Shown here in pieces: positions 2,300 to 28,223 of a stretch of 47,993 nucleotides of DNA. The stretch is taken from positions 1 to 47,993 of the IMG/VR virus record IMGVR_UViG_3300037520_001079, one strand, 5' to 3'. Under the pieces are notes generated by a model that had not been told where the DNA came from, ran no database searches, and worked only from the letters and a program-made list of their open reading frames with translations. The stretch is from a virus. Position 1 is the stretch's first letter. Each line of letters opens with the position of its first letter. The position numbers and the translations under genes were made by a program.

Positions 2300-3568
2300 A
2301 TGGCAGAAACCAATACGCCGAGTAACCCGTCCGCGCCGGCGTCGGACAACCAACCAACCACCACTCCGGAACTTTCCGAAGCCGGTGGCACTATGACCTT
2401 CGACGCGGCTCGTTCGCTCTCGGAGGCTTTCAACTCGATCGGCAAAGAGCCCACCGCTCCCACGCCCGAGGCACCCAAGGCGGAAGCCCCCAAGGCTCCC
2501 GAGACCAAAACCGAAGCACCCAAAGCGGAACCCGTCGCGGAACCGACCAAAGAAGAAGCCCCGGCTACGGCCGATGCCGACGCTTTGGCTGAACTCCTGG
2601 GCGGACCGAAGAAAGCCGAGGCCAAGCCGGAGCCGGACGACGCACCTCCCGAAGGGGCGATGACCGAAGGGGCTACGAAGAAGTGGGCCGAGCAGCGCAA
2701 AGCTCTCAAGGAGGAGCGCCGTCGCCGCGAGGAACTCGAAGCCAAGGTGGCCGAACTGGAGAAGAAGTCGACCGATGTCGCACCCGACGAGGTCAAACAA
2801 CTCCGCGAGACGGTCGACGCCTACGAGCGCGAGCTACAAATTGCGCGGGTCGAGGCGACCAAGGAATTCAAGGATGCGGTCGCGGTGCCCCGTGAACGGA
2901 TCAACGGGCAACTCGAATCCTTCGCCAAGAAGTATGAGTTCCGTGAGGCCGACGCCCGTGTGGCCTTCGCCGAAGCCGATCCGGAGAAGCAGACCGAGCT
3001 ACTCGTCGATATGGCCAGCGGGATGAATGACCGCGACCGGATGCGCTTCTACGCGATGGCGGAAGAGTGGCAGAAGGTCGAGGGCATCGCCAACAAGGTC
3101 CGCAACAATGCGCGGCTGGCCCTGGAGAAGATCCAGGAACATCACGCCGAGCAGAACAAGGCATTCGTCGAGACCCGCCAGAAGCAGTATCGCGGGGCGC
3201 TGGAGAAGATCTGGGGCGATGTTTCCGAGAAAGCACCACTCTTCCGCCGCCGTGAAGGCGACGATGCGTGGAACCAGAAGATCGGGGAGATCGAGCAATT
3301 CGCCACGGGGCTGGATTGGAACACGGTGGCCGACAACGACCAAGCACGGGCCGAAGTCGCTCTCCGGGCCGCAGCCTCGCCCTTCCTCTATGGTCTGGTG
3401 CAGCAGCTATTCGCCAAGACGGCCGAGCTAAACAAGACCCTCTCGAAATACCAGAGCGCGAAGCCTGGTGCGGGTGGGGGAGCAGCCGACCCGATCGTGG
3501 GCAGCGGCCAAGAGGAGAAGGTCGAGCACGAGGACTTCTTCTCGGCGATCAAGTCGGGGTTATCTTAA
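2300..3568 (+). CDS. Capsid scaffolding protein
   Basis: 422 residues. Residues 1-120 are a disordered region rich in Pro, Ala, Glu and Lys (repeats of APKAEAPKAPE type). About residues 125-185 form a coiled coil with many charged residues (EERRRREELEAKVAELEKK). The rest is helical, with a Gly-rich hinge (KPGAGGGAADPIVGSGQ) before a short C-terminal helix (HEDFFSAIKSGLS) of the kind scaffolds use to dock on capsid protein. The length, charge pattern and position directly upstream of the capsid gene fit an internal scaffold, present during procapsid assembly and then lost. No protease motif is visible in it. It is followed by a hairpin terminator. Confidence 0.8.
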   Translation: MAETNTPSNPSAPASDNQPTTTPELSEAGGTMTFDAARSLSEAFNSIGKEPTAPTPEAPKAEAPKAPETKTEAPKAEPVAEPTKEEAPATADADALAELLGGPKKAEAKPEPDDAPPEGAMTEGATKKWAEQRKALKEERRRREELEAKVAELEKKSTDVAPDEVKQLRETVDAYERELQIARVEATKEFKDAVAVPRERINGQLESFAKKYEFREADARVAFAEADPEKQTELLVDMASGMNDRDRMRFYAMAEEWQKVEGIANKVRNNARLALEKIQEHHAEQNKAFVETRQKQYRGALEKIWGDVSEKAPLFRRREGDDAWNQKIGEIEQFATGLDWNTVADNDQARAEVALRAAASPFLYGLVQQLFAKTAELNKTLSKYQSAKPGAGGGAADPIVGSGQEEKVEHEDFFSAIKSGLS

Positions 3569-3600
3569 AATCCCTCCGGAAACTTCGGTGACCGGACGCG

Positions 3601-3636
3601 AGGGAGGGGGATATTTTGCCCCCTCCCTTTGCTTTT
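3601..3636 (+). terminator. Rho-independent terminator after the scaffold gene
   Basis: A perfect 10-bp stem AGGGAGGGGG (3601-3610) and CCCCCTCCCT (3619-3628), loop ATATTTTG, followed by TTGCTTTTT. It lies 33 bases after the scaffold stop and would separate scaffold from capsid transcription, at least in part. Confidence 0.75.
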
Positions 3637-3647
3637 TGTAGGCAGAC

Positions 3648-3713
3648 GGACGGCTAGGGCCAGCCGTCCCTACCAAATATATCCCCTGGTAGGGTCGTCT
3701 CGCCGAGGCGACC
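3648..3713 (+). repeat. Head-to-head pair of REP-like palindromes (REPIN-type element)
   Basis: Two hairpin units face each other. Unit 1 read on the minus strand starts GGTAGGGACGGCT and pairs AGCCGTCC with GGACGGCT. Unit 2 on the plus strand starts GGTAGGGTCGTCT and pairs GGTCGTCTC with GAGGCGACC over a 3-nt loop. The shared GGTAGGG ends (3668-3674 and 3688-3694) are themselves complementary, separated by a 13-nt AT-rich spacer. This is the architecture of REP doublets in bacterial chromosomes, and it is unexpected in a compact phage genome. The unit resembles GGTAGGG-type repeats I recall from Verrucomicrobia, which is unverified memory. Confidence 0.7.
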
Positions 3714-3724
3714 GAGTGCCTAAT

Positions 3725-3738
3725 GTAATAACCCCGTA
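3725..3738 (+). promoter_or_regulatory. Copy of the junction motif outside a gene end
   Basis: GTAATAACCCCGTA, directly after the REP pair and three bases before TTGACA. It does not end a gene here, so the motif is more than a tandem stop codon. Confidence 0.45.
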
Positions 3739-3740
3739 AT

Positions 3741-3769
3741 TTGACAACCACTTAACCGAGCGTAACTTA
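3741..3769 (+). promoter_or_regulatory. Sigma70-like promoter candidate for the capsid gene
   Basis: TTGACA at 3741-3746 is a perfect -35 box. The best -10 candidate is TAACTT at 3763-3768 with a 16-bp spacer, a weak match. It follows a terminator and precedes a 190-nt leader to the capsid gene, where an extra promoter would raise capsid expression over scaffold. Confidence 0.4.
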
Positions 3770-3956
3770 GTCTCACGTTTACGGGTAGCGGCAATCATCC
3801 GGTAGAAATCAGAAAAGATAGGTTCGCGAGGAAGCCCGATCCGCGACGGGAAGAGAAAAGCAAAATCGTGGTGTTGTCACTAGCCTCGGGACCGCATGTG
3901 CGTCTCCCGATCAAGGCAAAGTAATAACCCCACAAATTAGGAGAAAAACAAGCATT
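3770..3956 (+). other. Structured untranslated leader of the capsid gene
   Basis: 187 bases without a credible gene. It can form TCGCG/CGCGA (3824-3828 with 3842-3846) and a bulged hairpin CGGGA-CGCA/TGCG-TCCCG (3887-3909). A junction-motif copy GTAATAACCCCACA lies at 3921-3934, followed by AGGAG at 3939-3943 as the ribosome-binding site. Possible roles are transcript stability or control of capsid translation; I see no known riboswitch. Confidence 0.4.
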
Positions 3957-5132
3957 ATGCCTTGCAATAATATTGAAGCTCTCTTCGTGGAACATGCCGG
4001 CCTTATCCGGAACAATGTCTCGAAGAACATCATCAACTCCGATTTCTACCTGAAGTATCTGCCGCGTGAGCAGTGGATGGACGGGCAAGGAACGGAATAT
4101 AGTTACCCGATCTATGAGCGCACGCTCTCGTCCAGCCCCGTCACTTTCAGTGCATGGGAGTCTTCGGACGGCGAAGCGGGCGGTCAGTGCCAAGTCGCCG
4201 GTCAGAACATCGACAACTTCGGCATCACCCTGCGCCAGACCAGCCTCAAAAAGGCCGCGCTGAACTCGCCCGACATCTGTCTGGACGATCTTCAGTTCGC
4301 CTGGCAGGTCGAAGATCAGGTGAAAAACATCGTTCGCGTTCTCTCGGAGAACACGAAATGGGTTTGGACCAACGCTTATCAGGACGAGTATATCGACGCT
4401 TGCGGCACCAAAATGGTCGCATCGGCGAACCTCCCGTCTGGTAGCTCGGTCTTCCCTTCGACTCCGGCCACTTCCAAACTTACCTGGGGGATCCTCGAAG
4501 AGATCTACCAGCAGCTTGGTTACAATGGCGGCAGCATGAATCCGTTCGCTCGCGTTGACGAGATGACCCCGATTTATGCCGCAGTCGGCGAGCGTTTCAC
4601 GTTCCATGATCTGAAGCGCCAAGACGCTAACACCCGTGACGACTTCCGTTACGCTTACGAGGGTTCGGAGACTCAGTCCCCGATGCTCGGAGCGCCCGGT
4701 CTGTCCGGTGTGTATCGCGGCTATCGCTTCTTCACGGTTGAATTCCCGCCCCGTTACGACTTCGTCGGCGGTGCATGGGTTCGCCGTCAGCCGTTCGCGT
4801 CGACCCCGACGACGAAGGGTGACAAGTGGGAAGTGTCCGACGCCTACAAGAATGCGGAATACACCGACACCGTGATTTATCACGCTGACGTGTTGAAGGT
4901 TCTTGTGCCCAAGCCGAAAGCTGCCAGCCCGATGAAGTATAACCCCCAGTATAGCTGGACCGGTGAATTCGTCTGGCGGAATATCCCTGACCGCGACTGC
5001 AACGTCGATGGAAATACAGGGTTCTTCCGGGCACTCTTCGCGTATGGCCCGAAGGTGGAGCGTCCCGACCTCGGCTTTGTGGTTCGCCACAAACGCTGCG
5101 CTCGCGCCCTCGACCTCGTCGCTTGCTACTAA
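3957..5132 (+). CDS. Major capsid protein
   Basis: 391 residues from ATG 3957 after AGGAGAAAAACAAGCATT. It begins MPCNNIEALFVEHAGLIRNN and ends RHKRCARALDLVACY. The position right after a scaffold gene, own promoter candidate, long leader and strong hairpin after the stop are the hallmarks of the most highly expressed phage gene. The sequence is a mixed alpha/beta protein without membrane segments; the long N-terminal helix followed by polar loops (EYSYPIYERTLSSSPVTFSAWE) is compatible with an HK97-fold capsid protein, but I cannot show the fold from sequence alone. The long open frame on the opposite strand here (3795-5090) is a shadow. Confidence 0.8.
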   Translation: MPCNNIEALFVEHAGLIRNNVSKNIINSDFYLKYLPREQWMDGQGTEYSYPIYERTLSSSPVTFSAWESSDGEAGGQCQVAGQNIDNFGITLRQTSLKKAALNSPDICLDDLQFAWQVEDQVKNIVRVLSENTKWVWTNAYQDEYIDACGTKMVASANLPSGSSVFPSTPATSKLTWGILEEIYQQLGYNGGSMNPFARVDEMTPIYAAVGERFTFHDLKRQDANTRDDFRYAYEGSETQSPMLGAPGLSGVYRGYRFFTVEFPPRYDFVGGAWVRRQPFASTPTTKGDKWEVSDAYKNAEYTDTVIYHADVLKVLVPKPKAASPMKYNPQYSWTGEFVWRNIPDRDCNVDGNTGFFRALFAYGPKVERPDLGFVVRHKRCARALDLVACY

Positions 5133-17525: not shown

Positions 17526-20500
17526 ATGATTTCGGACGAGGAATTCAACTGGCTGGTCAACGAAGCTGGAGTCGACACGGAAGAGGAAACTCTGACTCGA
17601 CCAAGCCTGACTCTGCAAAGTCGTCCAGAGGATTTCAGTGACGTAGAAGCTGTTGAGCCCGAACCGGAACAAGAGTTGTCCGATGATATTTGGGCGCAAC
17701 TTGGGATCGGCGAAGATGAGTTGATGGATTACCGTCCGGAGCGCACCCTTCGCGAAGAGTTCTCGACCGGCCTAGATCGCGGTGTCGACCAGACCCAAGG
17801 TCTCGGCTACGGGTTGGTCGGGCTCATGGGGCAGGCACTCGGGGTGGAGGGAATCGAGGAGTTCGGGCTGGATAATTACGTCCGCAAGATGGAGGAGGCG
17901 GCACAGAACCAAGCTACGGTGCAGGATCCCTTCGAGGAGATCGAGGGGGCAGGGGATGCGGCGACCTACGCGGCAGGGCTCTTGGGTGAGCAGATTCCGC
18001 AGTTGCTCGCTTCAGCGGTCGGTGGCGGCATCGGCGGTTTCGTCGGTAAGACCTTGGCCAAGCGGATCGTGGCCAATGAAGTCGGTAAGCGGGTGGCGGC
18101 AGGGATGGCCGGACGGGAGTTTGCCAACAAAGCGGCAGAGATTACGGCTCGTGGTGAGGTAACCAAACAAGCAGCCAAAGAGGTCGCCGAGCAGGTGGCC
18201 CAAGGTGCGCTCATGCGGGAAGGGCAAGCCGCAGCCCGCGGTGGTATCGCGGGTGCTTACCTCGCCAACTTTGGCCAGATCGCGGGAGGGAGCTTCGGGC
18301 AGATCGCGCAAGAGACGGGTGAAGGGGATGCCTTGGCGGCGGCAGCTTTTGCAGTGCCAGGAGCGGCACTCGATACTTTGGGTGAGGTCTTCATTGCCGG
18401 AAAATTTCTCAAACCTTTCACCAAGGCGGGACGGGCGGCAGCAGAGGGTGTCGATACGGCGACGGGTATCTCGTTCCCGGGCCGTGTGGCCCGAAGCGTG
18501 GGCGTTGGTCTTCCTGCTGCGGCAACCTTGGAAGGTGGCACCGAGTATGTGCAGACCGGATTGGAGCAAGCCGCTCTCGGTGCAGCCGATCCGAATCGGA
18601 CGATCGAAGAAACTGTCCTGAATCCCGAAGCCGAACGTGAACGTAGGATCGCTGCGGCGGCGGGTGCCGTGGTCGGTGGCGGTCTCGGTGGCGCGGGCAG
18701 TGTTGTCGAAGCACTGGCCCCGCAGACGGCGGAGAAGTTGCGGCAGTTGCCTCCTCGTCAGGCAGATCAGGCTCCGGCTGAACCTGGTGCTGCTTTACCT
18801 GGACAGTGGTCGCAGCCCGTCGATGTCGGCGGAATCACCATGCGTAAGAGTGCCTCGGGTATCTGGGCGGCGATCAATCCTCCGGACGATCTGGACCCCG
18901 CGGCCCCGCGCAATACGCTTGAAGACGGATCGAATGTCGTGGTGCTGCGTAGTGCAGCGGGCGAGCAGAACGCTTGGCTTATTGAGGAAGCGGAGAGTGC
19001 CTTAAACGAAGTTTCTGAAGGGCAGACCACCGATGATTTAGCTGGTGAGGAAACAAATCAAATCGCCGATGACGAAGATGAGTTAGGTGAGGATGCGGAG
19101 CTTCAAGAAGTCCGTGAGGGGTTGGCCATCGGTGAAAAGCCCCAGCGCCGAGATCTTGGTATGGGTCAGCCGATAAAGTCCGCCGAAGAATCGGCGCGGG
19201 CCATCGACGACATTTATACTGAAGCTGAAAGGACGGGACAAAGTCCATTCGGTGCATTGTTCCAGCGCAAGCGGGCCGATGCAGAAAACTCCCGCGAAAG
19301 AAAAATCAACGAGCGGATGCTTCAGTGGGGTCGCATCATTGCCCGTAAACCCGACGAAACAAAACAATTCGTTGACGGTCTTAACCCCGGCGATCGGGTC
19401 AGTATTGTCTCTGGAGATATTGGCGACGACAACTTTTCCGAAACCACGGGGGTATTTGTAAAGCGCCGGCCGAGCGGCAATGCCGTGTTCAAAGTGGCAA
19501 GGCTCTCTCCACGCTCGGCGGAAGCGAGCGCAGAACAAAGGGCACGCGGCGAAACATTAGTCGGTCGCGTGCAGCGGATCGATATAACCCCTGATAAATT
19601 CAATCGCATCAGCTTGGCCCCACCGCCGGAGTCGCGACCGTTGGTCAGTCCGTTCGAAGAGACGATGCGTGAATTGCTCGGAACGAATCCCGACAAGCGT
19701 TCCGCTGGGCAAGCTCTGGGATCTCCGTTTACGGGGGCAGGGGCTCCGCAAGAAACAACGATCAGCAACCGGATGGGCAGCGGGCCGATCCCCGTTCTGG
19801 TGAGATGGTTCAACAAAAAGGGTGAGAAGGGCACAGTCATTCCGACATTCAAAGGCAAGTTCACAAACTCGCCACTGACGACGGTATTCCAGATGAACGA
19901 AGGTCTTGGCGTCGAGGTGCCGGATGACCAGTTGGCCGACCTTAGTCCGGACATTCAAGTTGAACCGGTCAGCAATAAGAAAGGTGGTCGTAAAAACATT
20001 GTGACCGCGGTCAATCTCTGGGGCCGCACTTACCGCCGCGGTAAAACACCTGATGATTTTTCAGTCGACCTTCCATTGACTTCTCGCGGTGGTAAATCGA
20101 AGAGGCGTGGATTGTGGCTTTTCGATGAAATCTATCGCAACGCGCCCGAACGCATAGCGATGAGCGAAGCCGGTAGACAAGCGGCTGAAACGCGCCAAGG
20201 TGGGCCACTTGAAGAACAACTACGCCGTGTGGCCGGTAACATCGCCAAGCTCGATGCGGTGGAGAACATGTTCTACCAAGACGACTTCCAGAGGGCGACC
20301 GACTTCTTGGAGGACTCCAATCTTCCGGAAAATGAAAAGCGTTTGGCACAGCAAATGGCGCAAGACAAAGTCGTTTTGGCCTACGAAAAAGCTGCCCGCA
20401 CCAGCCGGGGAGCACCGTTTCGTGCGGAGGGGCGCGATCAAATTGCCAAGCGGTTGACAGAGATCTTGGCTGAACTTCGGGCTGAAGAACTGGCGCAGGC

Positions 20501-23500
20501 CAAAGACAAAGCTCTCTCCTCGATCTATGGCGACGTGCGCGGCTCGAAGGAAATCCGGTCGGCCCAGACGCGGGTCAATCGCCTAACCGGAAAAGCTCTC
20601 GGCAGCGTGCGGCAACAAAGTCCCGAGCGTTCGCTGGAGAAACTCGGCGCTTCGCAGCGTAATCTGGCTAAGACACCGAACGAGGTGCAGAAGCAAGCCT
20701 TTGATGACTTGGAAAACTTCTTGGAGGGTCAGGCGCTTGCCGGAAAATCCCGCGAGGACATCGAGAAGCAAATCCTCGGCCGCATTGAAAAGGGCACATC
20801 GGGAATGCTCAACAAGGCCAAGACAATCCTCGAAAAAGAATTTACGGAAGGGCTCAAAGGTAACGCAAAAGGCGATGTCGTTCGCGCTATCAACCAAGTA
20901 GCCGACCGTTACCGCCGTCTTGGGCGGTTCAATCCAATCGGTATTGCGACCCGTGCAGCCTTCTCGGCCAAGCGGACGATCCGCCGCCAAGAGAGCAATG
21001 ATCCTACGGTCAATATGACCGACCGAGAGGCTGAACAATCTGCGACTCGCCAAACCCCCGTCGACACCGAGACGCGGCAAGCCGCGGTGACTGGGGAATT
21101 AGAGCGGGTGCCAGAGACGCGGGAAGCCGAAGTCGGGCAAGTTGAACTTCCGGAAGACGATAACCAACAGACAGAGGAAGGTGCCGTCGCCGCTTCCGAA
21201 GAGGGTGATGTCCAAGACGCATTGGAGCAAGGCCGCGACCGCCTTCTTCAGATCAATGACGACGATCTGGACCTCGTTCTCAGGAATAGAGCCCTACTTC
21301 AAGATGAACGCGGAAGGGCTCTTCGTGGTCAAAAGAGCAGCCTCAATGCGGCTCAACGTAGACGAGCCCGTGAAATTGAACGATTTATATCAGGAGAACT
21401 AAACTATGAAGACATCTACCCCAACGCCCCAAGAGGAGGAGGAGACACCGCCGTCACCGATGGTGCTGTCGCTGCTGGCCGGACGAGCCCTGGAGAAGTA
21501 TTATCCGGAGCTTCTCAATCAGTTGCCCGCGGAGGTGCAGGACCGCGTGGTCAGCGGAGATCAGACCGTGTGGGCGGACTTAATCAAGGAGCAGCCGGAA
21601 CTGTTCAGGGAAGCCCCGTTCAGCGCGATGGAGGATCTGGCGTTCCAGCACCTCTTGACCCCCAAGCCGTCCGCGCAAGAGCCCGAGCTACTACCCGACG
21701 ATTCGTCCAGTCCTTTGCCCGCCTAACCGACGCGGAGCTAACTGCGCTTTCCGATGCCGAGCTTGATCGCGCCAGGCAAGCCATCCTCAATGAACGCGAC
21801 CCAGCCGAGGCGCTGGCCAATCGCGTAGCGATCGGATCCACGGCGGCATCCGTCGCCGACTTGGCGCGGCGTTCGGGTTTGGATCTGCTGCGTGGAGCGG
21901 CGGCTGAACTGGCCACCGAGCAAGCCAACCGAGACGCAGTTAACACGGCCCGTGAAAATCTCGGGGCGTTGCTGAAGAGTGGCGCATTTGCTGACGCCAA
22001 CACGTTTTTAGATCGTGTAGCGGCGACTGGGTCGATGCCGCGGGACATCGTCCTCCGTGCGCGGGAGTTCTTAAAGCTCGCTCGGCCTGAGATTAACCTG
22101 GACCCGAGACTTAGAAGGGGAGCCCGTAGAATTGATTTCAACAACGTCGGTATCCAGATCGGACGCTTCGGGCCGGATACCTCATGGGCCGGACTAACCA
22201 CGGGAGGTAGTGGCGGCTACAACATCACAATCAATTTGGATGCCGTGCACGACCGCGACAGCGTGGTCAACACGATGCTGCACGAGCTTCAGCATGTTGT
22301 CCTCAAGGAGAAAGTCGCCCGCCGCATTCCACTCAACCGAGTCGAGCAGGAGGCGCTTGATCGATTGGAGGGTATCCGCCGTGACGTGGTGATCCGTGCC
22401 GCCCGCTCTCGTGGATTGACGGTGCCGGACCGACCCACTGATGTCGACGTGGCCAATCTCTCCGAGGAACTTTACCGACAGGCGTTGCCGGATGTGGAGA
22501 ACGGTGATCGGTCTTTAGCCTCTTTACGCAACTTGGAGGAATTCGTCGTCGAGGTATCGAGCAATCCAGAACTGGCCGACCTCATGGTGCGGCTCGGATT
22601 CGGCGAAGGCAGAGGTAGGGTCACTATGCTCGGGGCTTTGAAGAATGCTTGGGACTCCTTGGTTCAATTCATCACCGGGGTCAAAGCCGATCCCAATTCC
22701 CCGCTGGCCAAAGCCTTCAAAGATTCTTGGGTGGTCACCTTCGCCAATGCCGGAGCCGACCTTAACTTGGGTGAATACACGATCCCTGAAGTCCGCCGCA
22801 CGGCAATGGCCGACGAATTAGCCAAGTTGGCTGAAATCCGCGCCTTCATTGATGCACGTATCGAGGAGCAAAACTTGGCCGGCACGACCGAGGAGCGGAA
22901 TCGTTTATTGGCCGAGTGGAGCAAGATGAACTCCACCCCAGCCGTCGCTGCCGCCCGCAAGGCTCGCCGCAAAACCGAACGTAGACAAAAAGCCGCTGAA
23001 AAGCAGCCAGAAGCTCCGGCGCAAAATGTCGTAGAACCTCAAGCTGCTGCCGCGCCCGCTCCAGCGCCCCAAGAAACTACCGAGGCAAAAACACCGCAAA
23101 AAAGAATCAAGCGCCAGAAAACTAAAGAGCCAAAGGATTTGGCCCCCAAAGCGCCAAAGCAGCCTGAAAAGAAAACGAAGAAAAAAGAGGAAGGCGTCGA
23201 ACAAAGCAAAGAACTCGAAGAGCAAGACGGCTTTGGACTTGATTGGTCAGCATGGAGAGAAGCAAACACCCGCCGCGGATTCAAGCGCGTCAAAACAGCC
23301 AGGCTTCCGATGGGACATTCTTTCTGGAAGCTGTGGAAAAGCGAAAAGGAATGGCTTCGCGCTTCAGGCTACTCACTAAAGAAACGCGACAGAAACCAAT
23401 GGGAGGTGAACAAATGGGAGCAAGGCGACAGCGTAGTTCTCCCCAAAGAGAGCGACATCCCTGACTCGGCTTTTACTGATACCGTCTCGGAGTCGGTCGC

Positions 23501-26500
23501 TATCCGGAGGACTCCGCAGGAAACAGGCGAAACCCTGCTGCAACTGTCCCGTGACATGGAGCAGAGGTTTTTCTCGTTCCCCCGTGTTCTGTCCGACAGC
23601 ACTGACTTGGAGACAGTATTGTCTTCCGTAGACAAGACCCGCTTCCGGATCCTCAACACCTCCGACAACTCGATAGCGATCGCCGTAGAAGATCAGATTA
23701 TTCCAGGGATGCGCGTGGAATACGCCTCGTGGAAAGAGGGCAGCGAAGAGCCTCTCTCGCTTACGGCCGAAGGTGATTCGGTAGTTTTACCAAAAGAGGA
23801 CGCCATTCCGGAGTCGGCATTTCTTGACCCTGACGATGTGGACATACCTACGGCGGCAATTACCGAACCCTCGACGCGGGGTTTTGAAGTGCTGCGTGTG
23901 ACCAATGATGGTGTGGAGATCCTCGAAAATGGAAATAACCGAGTCGTCCCGACTGAAGACGTTATCGACTTCAAAAATATCAAAATCAAACGGCTCACCG
24001 ACACCGACTTTTATGTCGACTCCGGCTCCGGTTCTTTCGGCGGCATTGCCTCCTCTTCTGCCATATATCAAGCGATCTACCAGTGGGCGCTGAACAACGG
24101 ATTTCGCATCGTTCCCGATCCCCGAGGAACCACCCCTGCTGGAAACTACCGTCGCAACGCCCATCAACTGTCTTCGGCCCTACGTTCCGGCAGCGCAGAT
24201 CACTTCATTCCGACTAACGACCAACTTTCCCGAGCGTTTCCGATGGCGACGAATCGCCCCGAGAATGTCGCGGCTCGCAGAAACCTATGGAACTCAGCGA
24301 CAACTGAAGAAAAAATTGCTGCGCTAACTCGCGCCGAAAAAAGTTATGTTGAACAAGTTATCCCGGAACTTGTCTCAATGAGATATGACCCAACTTCCGA
24401 CAGCTTCATCGACGACAAATCAGGCAAATCCCTCAGTAGAGAACTCGCGGGAGAGAGACTTGCTTCGCTCACTAAGGAAAAGAAAGGACGAGGGGCTTTT
24501 GACCCTGAGCGAATCGGAATTCGAACAATGTCTCGCTATAGTGCGGCGAAGGCCGCATCTGAGGGACTTTTCGGACGAGAGTCTGAGGGGGATAATAATC
24601 GGCGACCTAATCTAGGTCCTGTAGCCTATTCTGTAGCACGCGGTCGTGTCTGGCGTCCGGTGACCCGCCGCACTCCGACCGGCGGCACGATCACCCAAGG
24701 CGGCATGTTCGCCGTCGATGAGCTTCTCGATAAGAAAGCCGGTGACCTCTACCGCTCAAGCCGGATGGCGATCAAGGTCGATGTCGCGACCATCGAAGAT
24801 CTCTCGCGCCTCTTGGAGCGTCAGATGAAGAAATTCTACAAGGGCCAGACACCGCCAGTTGAAACGATCAACACGGCTCTTGGTAACTTGGACAACCCGT
24901 TGACCCCAGAGCAGATCGCCGAGATCGAGCGGATGCGGGCGAACGGGCAGACCAACCAAGCGGCCAAGAAACGCGACCAGTATATCCGCGACAATCGCCG
25001 TAACTTTAAGCAGAACAAACAGACGCAAGCCTTGGCCCAGTTGCCGGAGGAACTTGCTGCGACGATCCGCGAGATGTCGGCGCACATCGAATCGCTATCG
25101 CGCCGTCTGCCGAATGAGGGCTTGGTCAATGGTGACTTGGCGATCACGGTCGACGAAGCCCTCGGCACTTACCTGAATCGCAGCTACGCGATCTTTGACG
25201 ATCCGCAGTGGGCCGACCGCGTGCGTAAAGACCCGAAGGTCATGGACGCGGCCCGCAAATACATCAGCAGCAGCTTGGTCAAAGACAAAACAACTGAGCT
25301 TATCGCCACTGCCGCCGAGGACGGGCGCACGCTATCCCGTGAGGATGCTTTGGTGATGGCCAATGACTCGGTGACCGAAGATGAAGTGGAGAACCTCCTC
25401 GAAGGCTATCTCGCCGTGGGGCAAGAAGCCCCGACCATCGAAGTGCTCTCCGGTCGTATTCCAGGGCAGAAGAATCTCAGCATGTTCTACCAGCGCGGCA
25501 ACATCGCGCCGGAAATCCAAGCCCTCTGGGGACGCTACGAAGATCCGAAGATCAACTACGCCAAGACCGTGATGAAGCTCTCCAGCGTCATCGCCAACGA
25601 TAACTTCCTCAAGGAACTGCGCGACATCGGTATTGAAGAGGGCTGGCTCTGGAGTCGTGAGAACAATCCCGACGACACCCGCCACCCTCCGGGCTACGTC
25701 CGGATCTCGACCGAGAAGAACCCTTCACTGACACCGCTCGGCGGCATGTATGCCCACCCGATGCTGGCCGAGGGTCTCTTCAAGATGTTCCCCGTCGGAG
25801 GTGCCGAAGAGCATTACTGGTGGTTGCGGTCGGCCATGAAGCTGACGGGCATCTCGATGGCGACCAAGACGGTCGGATCGGTGGCGTCCCAGATCCGTAA
25901 CTACTTGGGTAACTACTTGAACTTGGTGGCGACGGGTAACTTGGGTCTGGGTGATATCGCCCCGGGCAGCGACTTCTGGCAGAGGTTCAAAAATTCTAAT
26001 GACACCGTCTTGGCCAACACGTTCGGCAAATACCGCAACATGAGCCGTGCCGAGTGGCGGACCAAAATCGACGACTACATTAGCCGCGGCATTGTCGGTG
26101 AGTCGATCACCACCGGACTCCTTGAAGATCTCCTCACGGCCAGCCGCCGCGCCGGAAGTCCTGATTGGGGTGACTATGTTTGGAATAAGGTCGGTGAGCC
26201 TTTCAAGAAAGTGACCGACTTTGCTGTCCGCACTTACTCCTCCGGTGACGACTGGTTCAAGGTGATGATCTACGAGGCCGAGCAGGACAAATACCGCCAA
26301 GCCTATCCCGACTGGGACGATAACAAGGTCAAAGAGAAAGCCGCGGAGATCGCCCGTGACATCCACTGGACCTACTCGCTGGCCCCATCCATCGTGCAGG
26401 ATCTCAAGAAGTTCCCCTTCATCGCGCCGTTCGTGACCTTCACGAGCGAAGTTATCCGCACCACTTACAATCTGCAAAAGCTGGCCCGCCAAGAAATCAT

Positions 26501-27554
26501 GGAGGGCCGGGCTACGGGCAACAAGGAACTCGAAGCGATCGGCTGGAAGCGTGTCCGTGGTATGACCACGGCAGCTTTTCTTCCCCTCGCGGTGGGTTCC
26601 GCTTCGATGGCGATGGCGGGAATCTCCGGGGAGGACGAAGAAGACCTCCGCCGCTTCTTGCCCGACTGGCAGAAGAACAGCCAGCTTCTCCTCTTCCGTA
26701 AGGAGAATGGTGAAGTCGACTTCGTCGATGTTAGCTTCCTCGATCCCTACGAGTATTTCAAAAAGCCTCTGTATGCGTTCATGCGTTCGCTGCGTAACGC
26801 CGACAGCGCCGACGATATTCTCCTCAAAGGCACGATGGACATGGTGCGCCAGGCTCTCGATCCTTTCACGAGCGAACAGATCTTCTCCGGAGCAATCATG
26901 GATGTGATGCGGAACCGCGATGCGGCCGGACGCCAGGTCTACAACCCGCAGGACACCGGAGCGAACATCGGTCTGAGCGTGGCCCGCAAGATTTTCTACG
27001 ATCCCTTCATCCCCGGCACCGTGAACAGTGTCGAGCGGATCGGTAAAGCCGCCTTCGGAATCGAGAGCGAGACGGGTCGCGCCTATAACCTCTTCAACGA
27101 AATCGGCAGCGTAGTGGCTGGTCAGCGTGTCTCCTCGGTCGACGCGCAGCAGGCCCTTCAGTTCAAGTCTTCACGCTTCATGCGCGAGATACGTGATGCT
27201 TCGTCCCTCTTCAACCGCGAGTTCACCACCCAAGGCACCCGCTCGGCTGGCGATGTGGTCGATGGCTACGAGCGTTCTAATGCCGCCCGCCGCAGCCTGA
27301 TCGACTCAATCCGCCGGGACTACCTCGCCGCCATCCGCCTCGGGGTTCCCGTGCAGCGGGCCAAAGCGATCCTCCGCGACGGAGGTCTCGGCGGCGACAC
27401 CATCAAGATGGTGACCACCGGAATCTACAAACCCTACAACGCGAGCGAGCAGAGCCTCGACTTGGTTCGCGCCCGCGGTAAGAGCGACCGTATCTCGGCC
27501 TACAACCAAGCCCGCCGCTCGGCCGCGCCCCGCGAAGTCCTCGCCGATCGATGA
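17526..27554 (+). CDS. Giant 3342-aa internal virion (polyvalent-type) protein
   Basis: One frame of 10 kb. Residues 1-75 are acidic; about 100-420 is Gly/Ala-rich and hydrophobic (ASAVGGGIGGFVGKTLAKR, AAAAGAVVGGGLGGAGSVV), likely membrane-active. About 1580-1600 contains MLHELQHVV, an HExxH zinc-peptidase motif (H1586, E1587, H1590). About 2180-2235 has AIYQWALNNGFRIVPDPRG and RRNAHQLSSALRSG, a block I know from large polyvalent proteins. A hydrophobic segment lies near 3011-3035. The protein is probably carried in the capsid and injected. I looked for N4-type virion RNA polymerase motifs and saw none. Its codons around 21406-21726 and 24385-24615 seem shaped by embedded genes. The C-terminus overlaps the next ATG (ATGA). 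Confidence 0.8.
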   Translation: MISDEEFNWLVNEAGVDTEEETLTRPSLTLQSRPEDFSDVEAVEPEPEQELSDDIWAQLGIGEDELMDYRPERTLREEFSTGLDRGVDQTQGLGYGLVGLMGQALGVEGIEEFGLDNYVRKMEEAAQNQATVQDPFEEIEGAGDAATYAAGLLGEQIPQLLASAVGGGIGGFVGKTLAKRIVANEVGKRVAAGMAGREFANKAAEITARGEVTKQAAKEVAEQVAQGALMREGQAAARGGIAGAYLANFGQIAGGSFGQIAQETGEGDALAAAAFAVPGAALDTLGEVFIAGKFLKPFTKAGRAAAEGVDTATGISFPGRVARSVGVGLPAAATLEGGTEYVQTGLEQAALGAADPNRTIEETVLNPEAERERRIAAAAGAVVGGGLGGAGSVVEALAPQTAEKLRQLPPRQADQAPAEPGAALPGQWSQPVDVGGITMRKSASGIWAAINPPDDLDPAAPRNTLEDGSNVVVLRSAAGEQNAWLIEEAESALNEVSEGQTTDDLAGEETNQIADDEDELGEDAELQEVREGLAIGEKPQRRDLGMGQPIKSAEESARAIDDIYTEAERTGQSPFGALFQRKRADAENSRERKINERMLQWGRIIARKPDETKQFVDGLNPGDRVSIVSGDIGDDNFSETTGVFVKRRPSGNAVFKVARLSPRSAEASAEQRARGETLVGRVQRIDITPDKFNRISLAPPPESRPLVSPFEETMRELLGTNPDKRSAGQALGSPFTGAGAPQETTISNRMGSGPIPVLVRWFNKKGEKGTVIPTFKGKFTNSPLTTVFQMNEGLGVEVPDDQLADLSPDIQVEPVSNKKGGRKNIVTAVNLWGRTYRRGKTPDDFSVDLPLTSRGGKSKRRGLWLFDEIYRNAPERIAMSEAGRQAAETRQGGPLEEQLRRVAGNIAKLDAVENMFYQDDFQRATDFLEDSNLPENEKRLAQQMAQDKVVLAYEKAARTSRGAPFRAEGRDQIAKRLTEILAELRAEELAQAKDKALSSIYGDVRGSKEIRSAQTRVNRLTGKALGSVRQQSPERSLEKLGASQRNLAKTPNEVQKQAFDDLENFLEGQALAGKSREDIEKQILGRIEKGTSGMLNKAKTILEKEFTEGLKGNAKGDVVRAINQVADRYRRLGRFNPIGIATRAAFSAKRTIRRQESNDPTVNMTDREAEQSATRQTPVDTETRQAAVTGELERVPETREAEVGQVELPEDDNQQTEEGAVAASEEGDVQDALEQGRDRLLQINDDDLDLVLRNRALLQDERGRALRGQKSSLNAAQRRRAREIERFISGELNYEDIYPNAPRGGGDTAVTDGAVAAGRTSPGEVLSGASQSVARGGAGPRGQRRSDRVGGLNQGAAGTVQGSPVQRDGGSGVPAPLDPQAVRARARATTRRFVQSFARLTDAELTALSDAELDRARQAILNERDPAEALANRVAIGSTAASVADLARRSGLDLLRGAAAELATEQANRDAVNTARENLGALLKSGAFADANTFLDRVAATGSMPRDIVLRAREFLKLARPEINLDPRLRRGARRIDFNNVGIQIGRFGPDTSWAGLTTGGSGGYNITINLDAVHDRDSVVNTMLHELQHVVLKEKVARRIPLNRVEQEALDRLEGIRRDVVIRAARSRGLTVPDRPTDVDVANLSEELYRQALPDVENGDRSLASLRNLEEFVVEVSSNPELADLMVRLGFGEGRGRVTMLGALKNAWDSLVQFITGVKADPNSPLAKAFKDSWVVTFANAGADLNLGEYTIPEVRRTAMADELAKLAEIRAFIDARIEEQNLAGTTEERNRLLAEWSKMNSTPAVAAARKARRKTERRQKAAEKQPEAPAQNVVEPQAAAAPAPAPQETTEAKTPQKRIKRQKTKEPKDLAPKAPKQPEKKTKKKEEGVEQSKELEEQDGFGLDWSAWREANTRRGFKRVKTARLPMGHSFWKLWKSEKEWLRASGYSLKKRDRNQWEVNKWEQGDSVVLPKESDIPDSAFTDTVSESVAIRRTPQETGETLLQLSRDMEQRFFSFPRVLSDSTDLETVLSSVDKTRFRILNTSDNSIAIAVEDQIIPGMRVEYASWKEGSEEPLSLTAEGDSVVLPKEDAIPESAFLDPDDVDIPTAAITEPSTRGFEVLRVTNDGVEILENGNNRVVPTEDVIDFKNIKIKRLTDTDFYVDSGSGSFGGIASSSAIYQAIYQWALNNGFRIVPDPRGTTPAGNYRRNAHQLSSALRSGSADHFIPTNDQLSRAFPMATNRPENVAARRNLWNSATTEEKIAALTRAEKSYVEQVIPELVSMRYDPTSDSFIDDKSGKSLSRELAGERLASLTKEKKGRGAFDPERIGIRTMSRYSAAKAASEGLFGRESEGDNNRRPNLGPVAYSVARGRVWRPVTRRTPTGGTITQGGMFAVDELLDKKAGDLYRSSRMAIKVDVATIEDLSRLLERQMKKFYKGQTPPVETINTALGNLDNPLTPEQIAEIERMRANGQTNQAAKKRDQYIRDNRRNFKQNKQTQALAQLPEELAATIREMSAHIESLSRRLPNEGLVNGDLAITVDEALGTYLNRSYAIFDDPQWADRVRKDPKVMDAARKYISSSLVKDKTTELIATAAEDGRTLSREDALVMANDSVTEDEVENLLEGYLAVGQEAPTIEVLSGRIPGQKNLSMFYQRGNIAPEIQALWGRYEDPKINYAKTVMKLSSVIANDNFLKELRDIGIEEGWLWSRENNPDDTRHPPGYVRISTEKNPSLTPLGGMYAHPMLAEGLFKMFPVGGAEEHYWWLRSAMKLTGISMATKTVGSVASQIRNYLGNYLNLVATGNLGLGDIAPGSDFWQRFKNSNDTVLANTFGKYRNMSRAEWRTKIDDYISRGIVGESITTGLLEDLLTASRRAGSPDWGDYVWNKVGEPFKKVTDFAVRTYSSGDDWFKVMIYEAEQDKYRQAYPDWDDNKVKEKAAEIARDIHWTYSLAPSIVQDLKKFPFIAPFVTFTSEVIRTTYNLQKLARQEIMEGRATGNKELEAIGWKRVRGMTTAAFLPLAVGSASMAMAGISGEDEEDLRRFLPDWQKNSQLLLFRKENGEVDFVDVSFLDPYEYFKKPLYAFMRSLRNADSADDILLKGTMDMVRQALDPFTSEQIFSGAIMDVMRNRDAAGRQVYNPQDTGANIGLSVARKIFYDPFIPGTVNSVERIGKAAFGIESETGRAYNLFNEIGSVVAGQRVSSVDAQQALQFKSSRFMREIRDASSLFNREFTTQGTRSAGDVVDGYERSNAARRSLIDSIRRDYLAAIRLGVPVQRAKAILRDGGLGGDTIKMVTTGIYKPYNASEQSLDLVRARGKSDRISAYNQARRSAAPREVLADR
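21406..21726 (+). CDS. Overprinted gene inside the giant gene (106 aa)
   Basis: 106 residues in the +1 frame relative to the giant gene. Its ATG is preceded by CAGGAGAACTAAACT, an AGGAG ribosome-binding site about nine bases upstream. The product looks like a genuine globular protein (VLSLLAGRALEKYYPELLNQLPAEVQDRVV, then WADLIKEQPELFREAPFSAMEDLAFQHLL), with normal hydrophobic spacing and aromatic residues. In the same stretch the giant frame (residues about 1294-1400) becomes a low-complexity Gly/Arg/Ala/Ser string without aromatics, as expected when the other frame carries the constraint. Function unknown; helical. Confidence 0.6.
   Translation: MKTSTPTPQEEEETPPSPMVLSLLAGRALEKYYPELLNQLPAEVQDRVVSGDQTVWADLIKEQPELFREAPFSAMEDLAFQHLLTPKPSAQEPELLPDDSSSPLPA
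24385..24615 (+). CDS. Second overprinted gene candidate inside the giant gene (76 aa)
   Basis: 76 residues, in the same +1 relative frame as the other embedded gene. The N-terminus is polar (MTQLPTASSTTNQANPSVEN); the rest reads like a folded helical protein: LLRSLRKRKDEGLLTLSESE, FEQCLAIVRRRPHLRDFSDE, SLRGIIIGDLI. The giant frame here (residues about 2287-2363) is Ser/Lys/Arg/Gly-rich and shadow-like towards the end. The ribosome-binding site is weak (AATGAGAT upstream), which lowers confidence. Function unknown. Confidence 0.4.
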   Translation: MTQLPTASSTTNQANPSVENSRERDLLRSLRKRKDEGLLTLSESEFEQCLAIVRRRPHLRDFSDESLRGIIIGDLI

Positions 27555-28171
27555 TAGTAACCGATACCAGCGTGACCCCGCCCGGCGGTTGGCGTTACGT
27601 CCAACCGGAAACGGGCTTCGAGTTTGCCGCTTCGACCTTGCGGGAACTGGTCAAGAAGGTGACCTCCCATCGCGAGGCCAATGGCATTGCCGTGGGCGAT
27701 CCCTCGGCCGACATCCAAGACTTTGTCTGTGCCCAGCTTCCGGTCGGCAGCGAGAGTTGCAGTCACGTCATCGAGGGTGACTACGCACTCAAGACCCACT
27801 TCACGATGGAGGATGTTAAGCGTTTCATCCAAGCCGCGGTCTCCGCACTCGCGGGGAGGGGCCTCGTCGATCAGACCGAAGCCGAACGCCGGGCCGCACT
27901 CTGTGCCTCATGTCCCCTGAACACAACAGTCAAAGGATGCTGGCGGTGCAAGGGTTTGGCCGAATGGCTCTTCAAGCTGATCGGTGCGCGGACCACGGCA
28001 CATGCTTCACGGCTCAACCAATGCGGCGTCTGCGGTTGCGCGATCAAGGCGAAGATCTGGTTGCCGCAGGATGTGGCCCAGAAGGTCAGCGAGGGTTACA
28101 CTTTCCCCTCGTGGTGCTGGCTCAATGACAAACCACTCTCGACGGGAATTGAACCCGTATCGCAGCCTTGA
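27551..28171 (+). CDS. Cys-rich putative zinc-binding protein
   Basis: 206 residues from an ATG overlapping the giant gene's TGA. The N-terminal part has GGWRYVQPETGFEFAASTLRELVKKV, a domain of unknown function. The C-terminal half has paired cysteines: ALCASCPLN, GCWRCKGL, CGVCGCAIK, and a late WCW, enough for two zinc sites. I have seen this arrangement as a conserved late-region phage protein of unknown role. The last 13 residues (KPLSTGIEPVSQP) are encoded by the complement of the tRNA-Glu gene, so the true C-terminus may be an accident of convergence. It closes the rightward late operon. Confidence 0.75.
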   Translation: MIVTDTSVTPPGGWRYVQPETGFEFAASTLRELVKKVTSHREANGIAVGDPSADIQDFVCAQLPVGSESCSHVIEGDYALKTHFTMEDVKRFIQAAVSALAGRGLVDQTEAERRAALCASCPLNTTVKGCWRCKGLAEWLFKLIGARTTAHASRLNQCGVCGCAIKAKIWLPQDVAQKVSEGYTFPSWCWLNDKPLSTGIEPVSQP

Positions 28172-28205
28172 GAGGGCTGTGTCCTAACCGTTAGACGACG
28201 AGAGC
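28134..28205 (-). tRNA. tRNA-Glu (anticodon CUC)
   Basis: A full cloverleaf on the minus strand. Acceptor GCTCTCG pairs with CGAGAGT (first pair G-T), the D arm is GTCT-AACGGTT-AGGAC, the anticodon stem CAGCC/GGCTG is perfect with loop CTCTCAA giving anticodon CUC, the variable loop is CGAT, and the T arm is ACGGG-TTCAATT-CCCGT. Total 72 nt; CCA is not encoded. It reads codon GAG. It is the last gene of the leftward operon and overlaps the 3' end of the convergent Cys-rich gene. Confidence 0.92.
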
Positions 28206-28223
28206 AGACTAAACCCGATGAAA

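Follow-up and report, generated by a model that had tools for sequence, protein, structure and literature searches.

How two palindromes of the bacterial REP type came to lie in the control region of a phage genome, from which host they derive and whether they serve the virus are the questions raised by the window analyzed here, an IMG/VR phage record of 47,993 bases (coordinates refer to this window unless another locus is named). A preliminary description had pointed to two inverted GGTAGGG-headed hairpins flanked by the scaffold terminator and the capsid promoter, and both their location and their setting were confirmed.

Genomic setting and structure of the REP pair

The flanking genes, one scaffold-like (2300–3568, plus strand) and one capsid-like (3957–5132, plus strand), are named from their position and have no family match. 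A terminator-like hairpin (3600–3629, plus strand) lies 3' of the scaffold-like gene, and the capsid-like gene is preceded by a promoter-like block (3741–3772, plus strand; TTTGACA at 3741–3747 ... CGTAACTTAG) that is kept in relatives and absent from the listing of a strict consensus promoter scan. The REP pair is located between these two signals and is extragenic, with the upstream gene ending at 3568 and the downstream gene starting at 3957.

Unit A (GGTAGGGACGGCTGGCCCTAGCCGTCC; 3648–3674, 27 nt, minus strand), a pattern match, consists of the GGTAGGG tag and an 8-bp stem with a GGCCC-type loop, and unit B (GGTAGGGTCGTCTCGCCGAGGCGACC; 3688–3713, 26 nt, plus strand) of the same tag and an 8-bp stem, including one T-G pair, with a CGCCG loop. 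The stems (GGACGGCT/AGCCGTCC and GGTCGTCT/AGGCGACC) differ between the units by compensating changes, and in both units GTAG marks one side of the base of a short, GC-rich hairpin. Arranged tail-to-tail, the units have their tags facing inward across an A+T-rich spacer of 13 nt (3675–3687), which shows one difference in the related virus L009. The complementary ends described earlier do exist, as TAGGCA in the outer tail of unit A (3639–3647, minus strand; AGGCAGACGG on the plus strand) pairs with TGCCTA in the outer tail of unit B (GAGTGCCTAAT; 3714–3724, plus strand), the latter contacting 3639–3644 in both the RNA and the single-stranded DNA folds; they lie, however, outside the span of 3648–3713 originally given and belong to the whole insert at 3637–3725. 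GGTAGGG alone is not rare, with five occurrences in the window vs. 2.85 expected. Followed by an 8-bp stem it occurs twice, in units A and B only, and is absent from 200 simulated 48-kb windows of the same composition. The RNA fold of 3630–3730 is more stable than that of shuffled sequences (z = -3.5), and the single-stranded DNA fold of 3637–3725 (z = -4.4) joins the two inverted REPs into one long hairpin closed by TAGGCA/TGCCTA.

Further features were observed in the record. A capsid leader of ~200 nt (3741–3956; CTCACGTTTACGGGTAGCGG...ATCCGGTAGAAATCA) is kept in relatives and is a candidate structured leader RNA; it is bracketed by a 21-nt direct repeat (81%; TAATAACCCC..., 3722–3742 and 3918–3938), and a partly similar leader occurs in L040, L043, L051 and L052, where capsid identity is no more than ~60%. 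The phage also encodes a tRNA-Glu (anticodon ctc; 28133–28206, minus strand) and a 3342-aa protein (17526–27554) with a large polyvalent protein associated domain 37.

Insertion into an empty site

Comparison with related phages, as suggested in the preliminary description, demonstrates that the REP pair was inserted and that most relatives lack it. Among 51 related viral loci retrieved with the capsid-like gene, 18 display a distance of 54–57 nt between the terminator motif and TTTGACA, i.e., an empty site, compared with 144 nt in the window, L004 and L005 and 143 nt in L009; these four carry the insert, and the site is empty in no fewer than 18 related viruses. Alignments (blastn) with six empty-site viruses (L010, L012 and L015–L018) end at window position 3636 and start again at 3726, separated by one base. 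Since they break exactly at these positions, ~88–89 nt (3637–3725) were gained, corresponding to a net gain of 88 nt with boundaries uncertain by ~4 nt. L004, L005 and L009, being independent assemblies, speak against a mis-assembly of these junctions. The insert begins within or right behind the T-run of the terminator-like hairpin. The tetranucleotide TGTA is repeated directly at 3637–3640 and 3724–3727, and the empty site has G, not A, in some relatives (L027, L028 and L044); consequently, a clean 88-nt gain and a 4-nt duplication both fit.

Over 10.8 kb, L004 and L005 share 98.9% identity with the window, and L009 is 93% identical over the insert-bearing 5.4 kb and far less so beyond. A single base separates the insert itself from its counterpart in L009, a level of change consistent with that of the surrounding sequence (96–100% identity). 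Because it is common to viruses with 93–99% identical flanks, the insert was inherited or recombined within the virus group and is not brand-new, and the "recent" passage through a host proposed earlier finds no support.

Bacterial source of the REP family

A pattern of the unit B type, with three stem and loop positions left open, was scanned against the genome contigs of 84,980 bacterial and archaeal species (genome_contigs) and yielded 68 stretches. By their titles, 61 belong to Verrucomicrobiota sensu lato (Verrucomicrobia, Opitutae, Lentisphaerae, Kiritimatiellae and similar), six to "uncultured bacterium" and one to "Proteobacteria". The units are multicopy in these chromosomes: the broad pattern counts 172 copies in an Opitutus sp. 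bin (G012), 48 in Chthoniobacterales VE1 (G009), 44 in G239 and 31 in a Limisphaerales genome (G002), vs. 0–2 matches per genome for a reversed control pattern. Of 46 distinct copies, 41 and 39 have Watson-Crick pairing at the two stem pairs not fixed by the pattern, as against 13 and 17 after shuffling, and the observed covariation was not attained in any of 10,000 shuffles. Unit B is letter-identical to copies in L068 (Verrucomicrobia Centralia_MAG_483) and G239, and unit A has one mismatch to a copy in G003 (GGTAGGGACGGCTGGCCCCAGCCGTCC). A strict pattern including the TGCCTA tail had no match in genome_contigs. Judged by sequence, the phage REPs belong to a Verrucomicrobiota family that, in the species scanned, is confined almost wholly to that phylum, and the idea that they may identify the host holds at the level of this group. 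A genome labeled Proteobacteria (L129 / G014, SYOC01000249.1) carries Verrucomicrobiota-type REPs and is possibly mislabeled or part of a mixed bin.

The likeness extends to a described superfamily. GTAG-tagged REPs have been reported from PVC bacteria, with Opitutus terrae rich in copies, and occur as tail-to-tail and head-to-head dimers (Di Nocera et al. 2013, PMC3733652). The phage pair shares with them the GTAG at the base of a GC-rich stem-loop, covarying stems of ~8 bp, a small loop, heterodimers of both arrangements, an extragenic position 3' of genes and Verrucomicrobia hosts; it differs in its location on a phage genome, and the likeness is drawn at the level of the superfamily, not of a numbered family. 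The label "REPIN-like" used earlier is apt in that two inverted REPs form one long single-stranded DNA hairpin, as in REPINs, which are presumed to be moved by a RAYT in trans (Bertels and Rainey 2011, PMC3116915). In contrast to the head-to-head unit with outer GTAG tags of the REPIN literature, the phage tags face each other across 13 nt. As the mobile REPIN unit is taken to be head-to-head and the phage pair is tail-to-tail, we class the latter as a GTAG REP dimer that is REPIN-like but not a strict REPIN.

The unusual part is the location of the pair on a phage. Two viral scans detected REPs of this kind in 13 and 49 stretches, respectively, and each set included three from the present virus group. 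Single GGTAGGG REPs were seen on IMG/VR contigs L058–L067 and L216–L260; many of the other REP-bearing viral contigs are short and could be fragments of chromosomes wrongly assigned to viruses. Blastn of the 90-nt element against annotated phages and plasmids gave no match, and a search of full-text literature, covering open-licence papers, found no report of a phage-borne REP pair. The earlier notion that bacterial REP doublets are rare in viruses is supported.

Putative host group

When the 90-nt stretch was searched against 384 genomes of the class, the best match to the dimer was G275:C34 (79% over 85 nt, E 1.4e-13), which has the same tail-to-tail arrangement and a left tail, AGGCAGACGGAC, with one base changed relative to the phage. 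Near full-length matches were also found in G002, G179, G300 and G344, and all five genomes except G002 fall in the order of G009, named Chthoniobacterales from the title of that genome. The AGGCAG tail of unit A recurs in REP copies of G275, G009 and G250, and, across 213 genomes of the order, a unit with the TGCCT tail occurs five times, confined to three of them (G009, G250 and G423). From this REP signature, our best guess is that the host order is Chthoniobacterales. Shared genes added nothing to this host hypothesis: tblastn with the capsid protein found no match in phages and a single weak, partial one in 388 genomes of the phylum, and phage DNA 3957–17500 gave two short matches in the order, neither surrounded by CRISPR-like repeats. 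One contig (L214) has a collar-fibre C-terminus 32% identical, a likeness too general to prove a host.

A second dimer in the same gap

In the related virus L049, another GGTAGGG dimer of different sequence (L049:5462-5527) follows the same terminator directly, arranged head-to-head with the tags outside, as in the REPIN unit. It has full-length matches in Verrucomicrobiota genomes, two of the three best (G260 and G250) falling in the same order as G009, and one of its halves is identical over 27 of 27 nt in G319. Since its sequence differs and its arrangement is opposite, it was gained independently. Unrelated inserts occupy the gap in L006–L008, L026 and L048, which indicates that it accepts foreign DNA in general, and the stretch between terminator and promoter looks like a recurrent landing site. 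Together with that of L049, these inserts measure ~40–300 nt, and several have a common block, GGATAGAAAAGGCTACAG....

Route of entry into the phage genome

We consider it probable that an ancestor phage, while infecting a Verrucomicrobiota host whose order was most likely Chthoniobacterales, acquired from it a tail-to-tail GTAG REP heterodimer. The dimer would have come to rest in the sole non-coding gap that separates the scaffold terminator from the capsid promoter, without harm there, and would since have been inherited as a mostly neutral passenger. The likely route would be that a host RAYT (TnpA-REP, an HUH transposase) recognized GTAG and the hairpin and cut and joined the DNA in single-stranded form. 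We infer this agent because the TnpA-REP of the family recognizes GTAG plus a hairpin and cuts at CT (PMC8266576), a dinucleotide present at both outer ends of the phage pair (TGCCT) and also before unit B. In this respect the pair resembles the substrate of the E. coli REPtron, although E. coli REPs have a bulged stem unlike that of the phage units, and the resemblance is one of sequence.

The phage record has no Y1_Tnp (Y1 transposase) match, so named genes being present in 9 of 12 bacterial genomes examined. The best 12 Y1_Tnp loci had no GGTAGGG nearby; a wider set of loci gave some. GGTAGGG REPs adjoin RAYT genes in L180 (REP_Tyr_transpos 80.5 bits, cut-off 80) and L204 (49.9 bits, below the cut-off) and lie ~1.1 kb off in L193 (85.9 bits). 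RAYT genes with GGTAGGG REPs close by, as sought in the preliminary description, are present in some of these bacteria, but with stems unlike those of the phage subfamily, and no RAYT flanked by REPs of that subfamily was seen among the loci examined. G275, the best match to the dimer, has only a Y1 transposase of the IS200/IS605 type, and Y1_Tnp matches are lacking from G009 and G250; all three genomes may be incomplete. Insertion of the IS200/IS605 type makes no target duplication. The TGTA repeat at the insert ends could be one and would then count against a RAYT, as does the tail-to-tail arrangement, the unit thought to move being head-to-head.

In a less likely origin, the pair is a scrap of host DNA captured by illegitimate or repeat-mediated recombination, REPs being the commonest intergenic host sequence. 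Tail-to-tail pairs also arise within tandem arrays of head-to-head dimers, e.g., in G002:C75, the gap takes unrelated DNA, and a cognate RAYT was not found among the loci examined. Against such a capture, the insert is a bare dimer with paired ends (TAGGCA/TGCCTA) and no further recognizable host DNA, and a second, different dimer was gained at the same place in L049. Entry by way of a host RAYT is the reading we prefer.

Function and persistence

Recruitment of the element for a phage function, as a backup terminator, an insulator of the capsid promoter or a protein site (gyrase, IHF), appears improbable. Strong hairpins that follow a terminator directly and shortly precede a promoter, their retention in viruses with 93–99% identical flanks and two separate acquisitions at one site would suit such a role, but most relatives have nothing at the site and in L009 the element is no better conserved than its neighborhood. 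Stabilization of capsid mRNA, as proposed earlier, is likewise unlikely: the insert lies 3' of the terminator and ahead of the conserved promoter block, and the capsid mRNA would therefore not be expected to include it. That the pair is an intrinsic regulatory RNA of the phage and not a host repeat is scarcely credible despite its stable fold, given its absence from most close relatives with clean empty sites, the multicopy units in bacterial chromosomes and the lack of any Rfam match at the locus. A neutral passenger is the simplest reading of the insert.

Implications for REP transfer

REPINs are said to pass down vertically; no significant horizontal transfer is in evidence, and replicative transfer is considered unlikely (PMC8049555). 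We tentatively suggest, as a possibility beyond the present locus, that host RAYTs copy REP dimers into infecting phages at the recurrent terminator-promoter gap and that phages spread REPs between bacteria. The REP pair ties uncultured phages to Verrucomicrobiota through a host-specific repeat and not through shared genes or CRISPR spacers, and REP dimers on phages, gained at least twice in one virus group, represent a concrete route for horizontal transfer.
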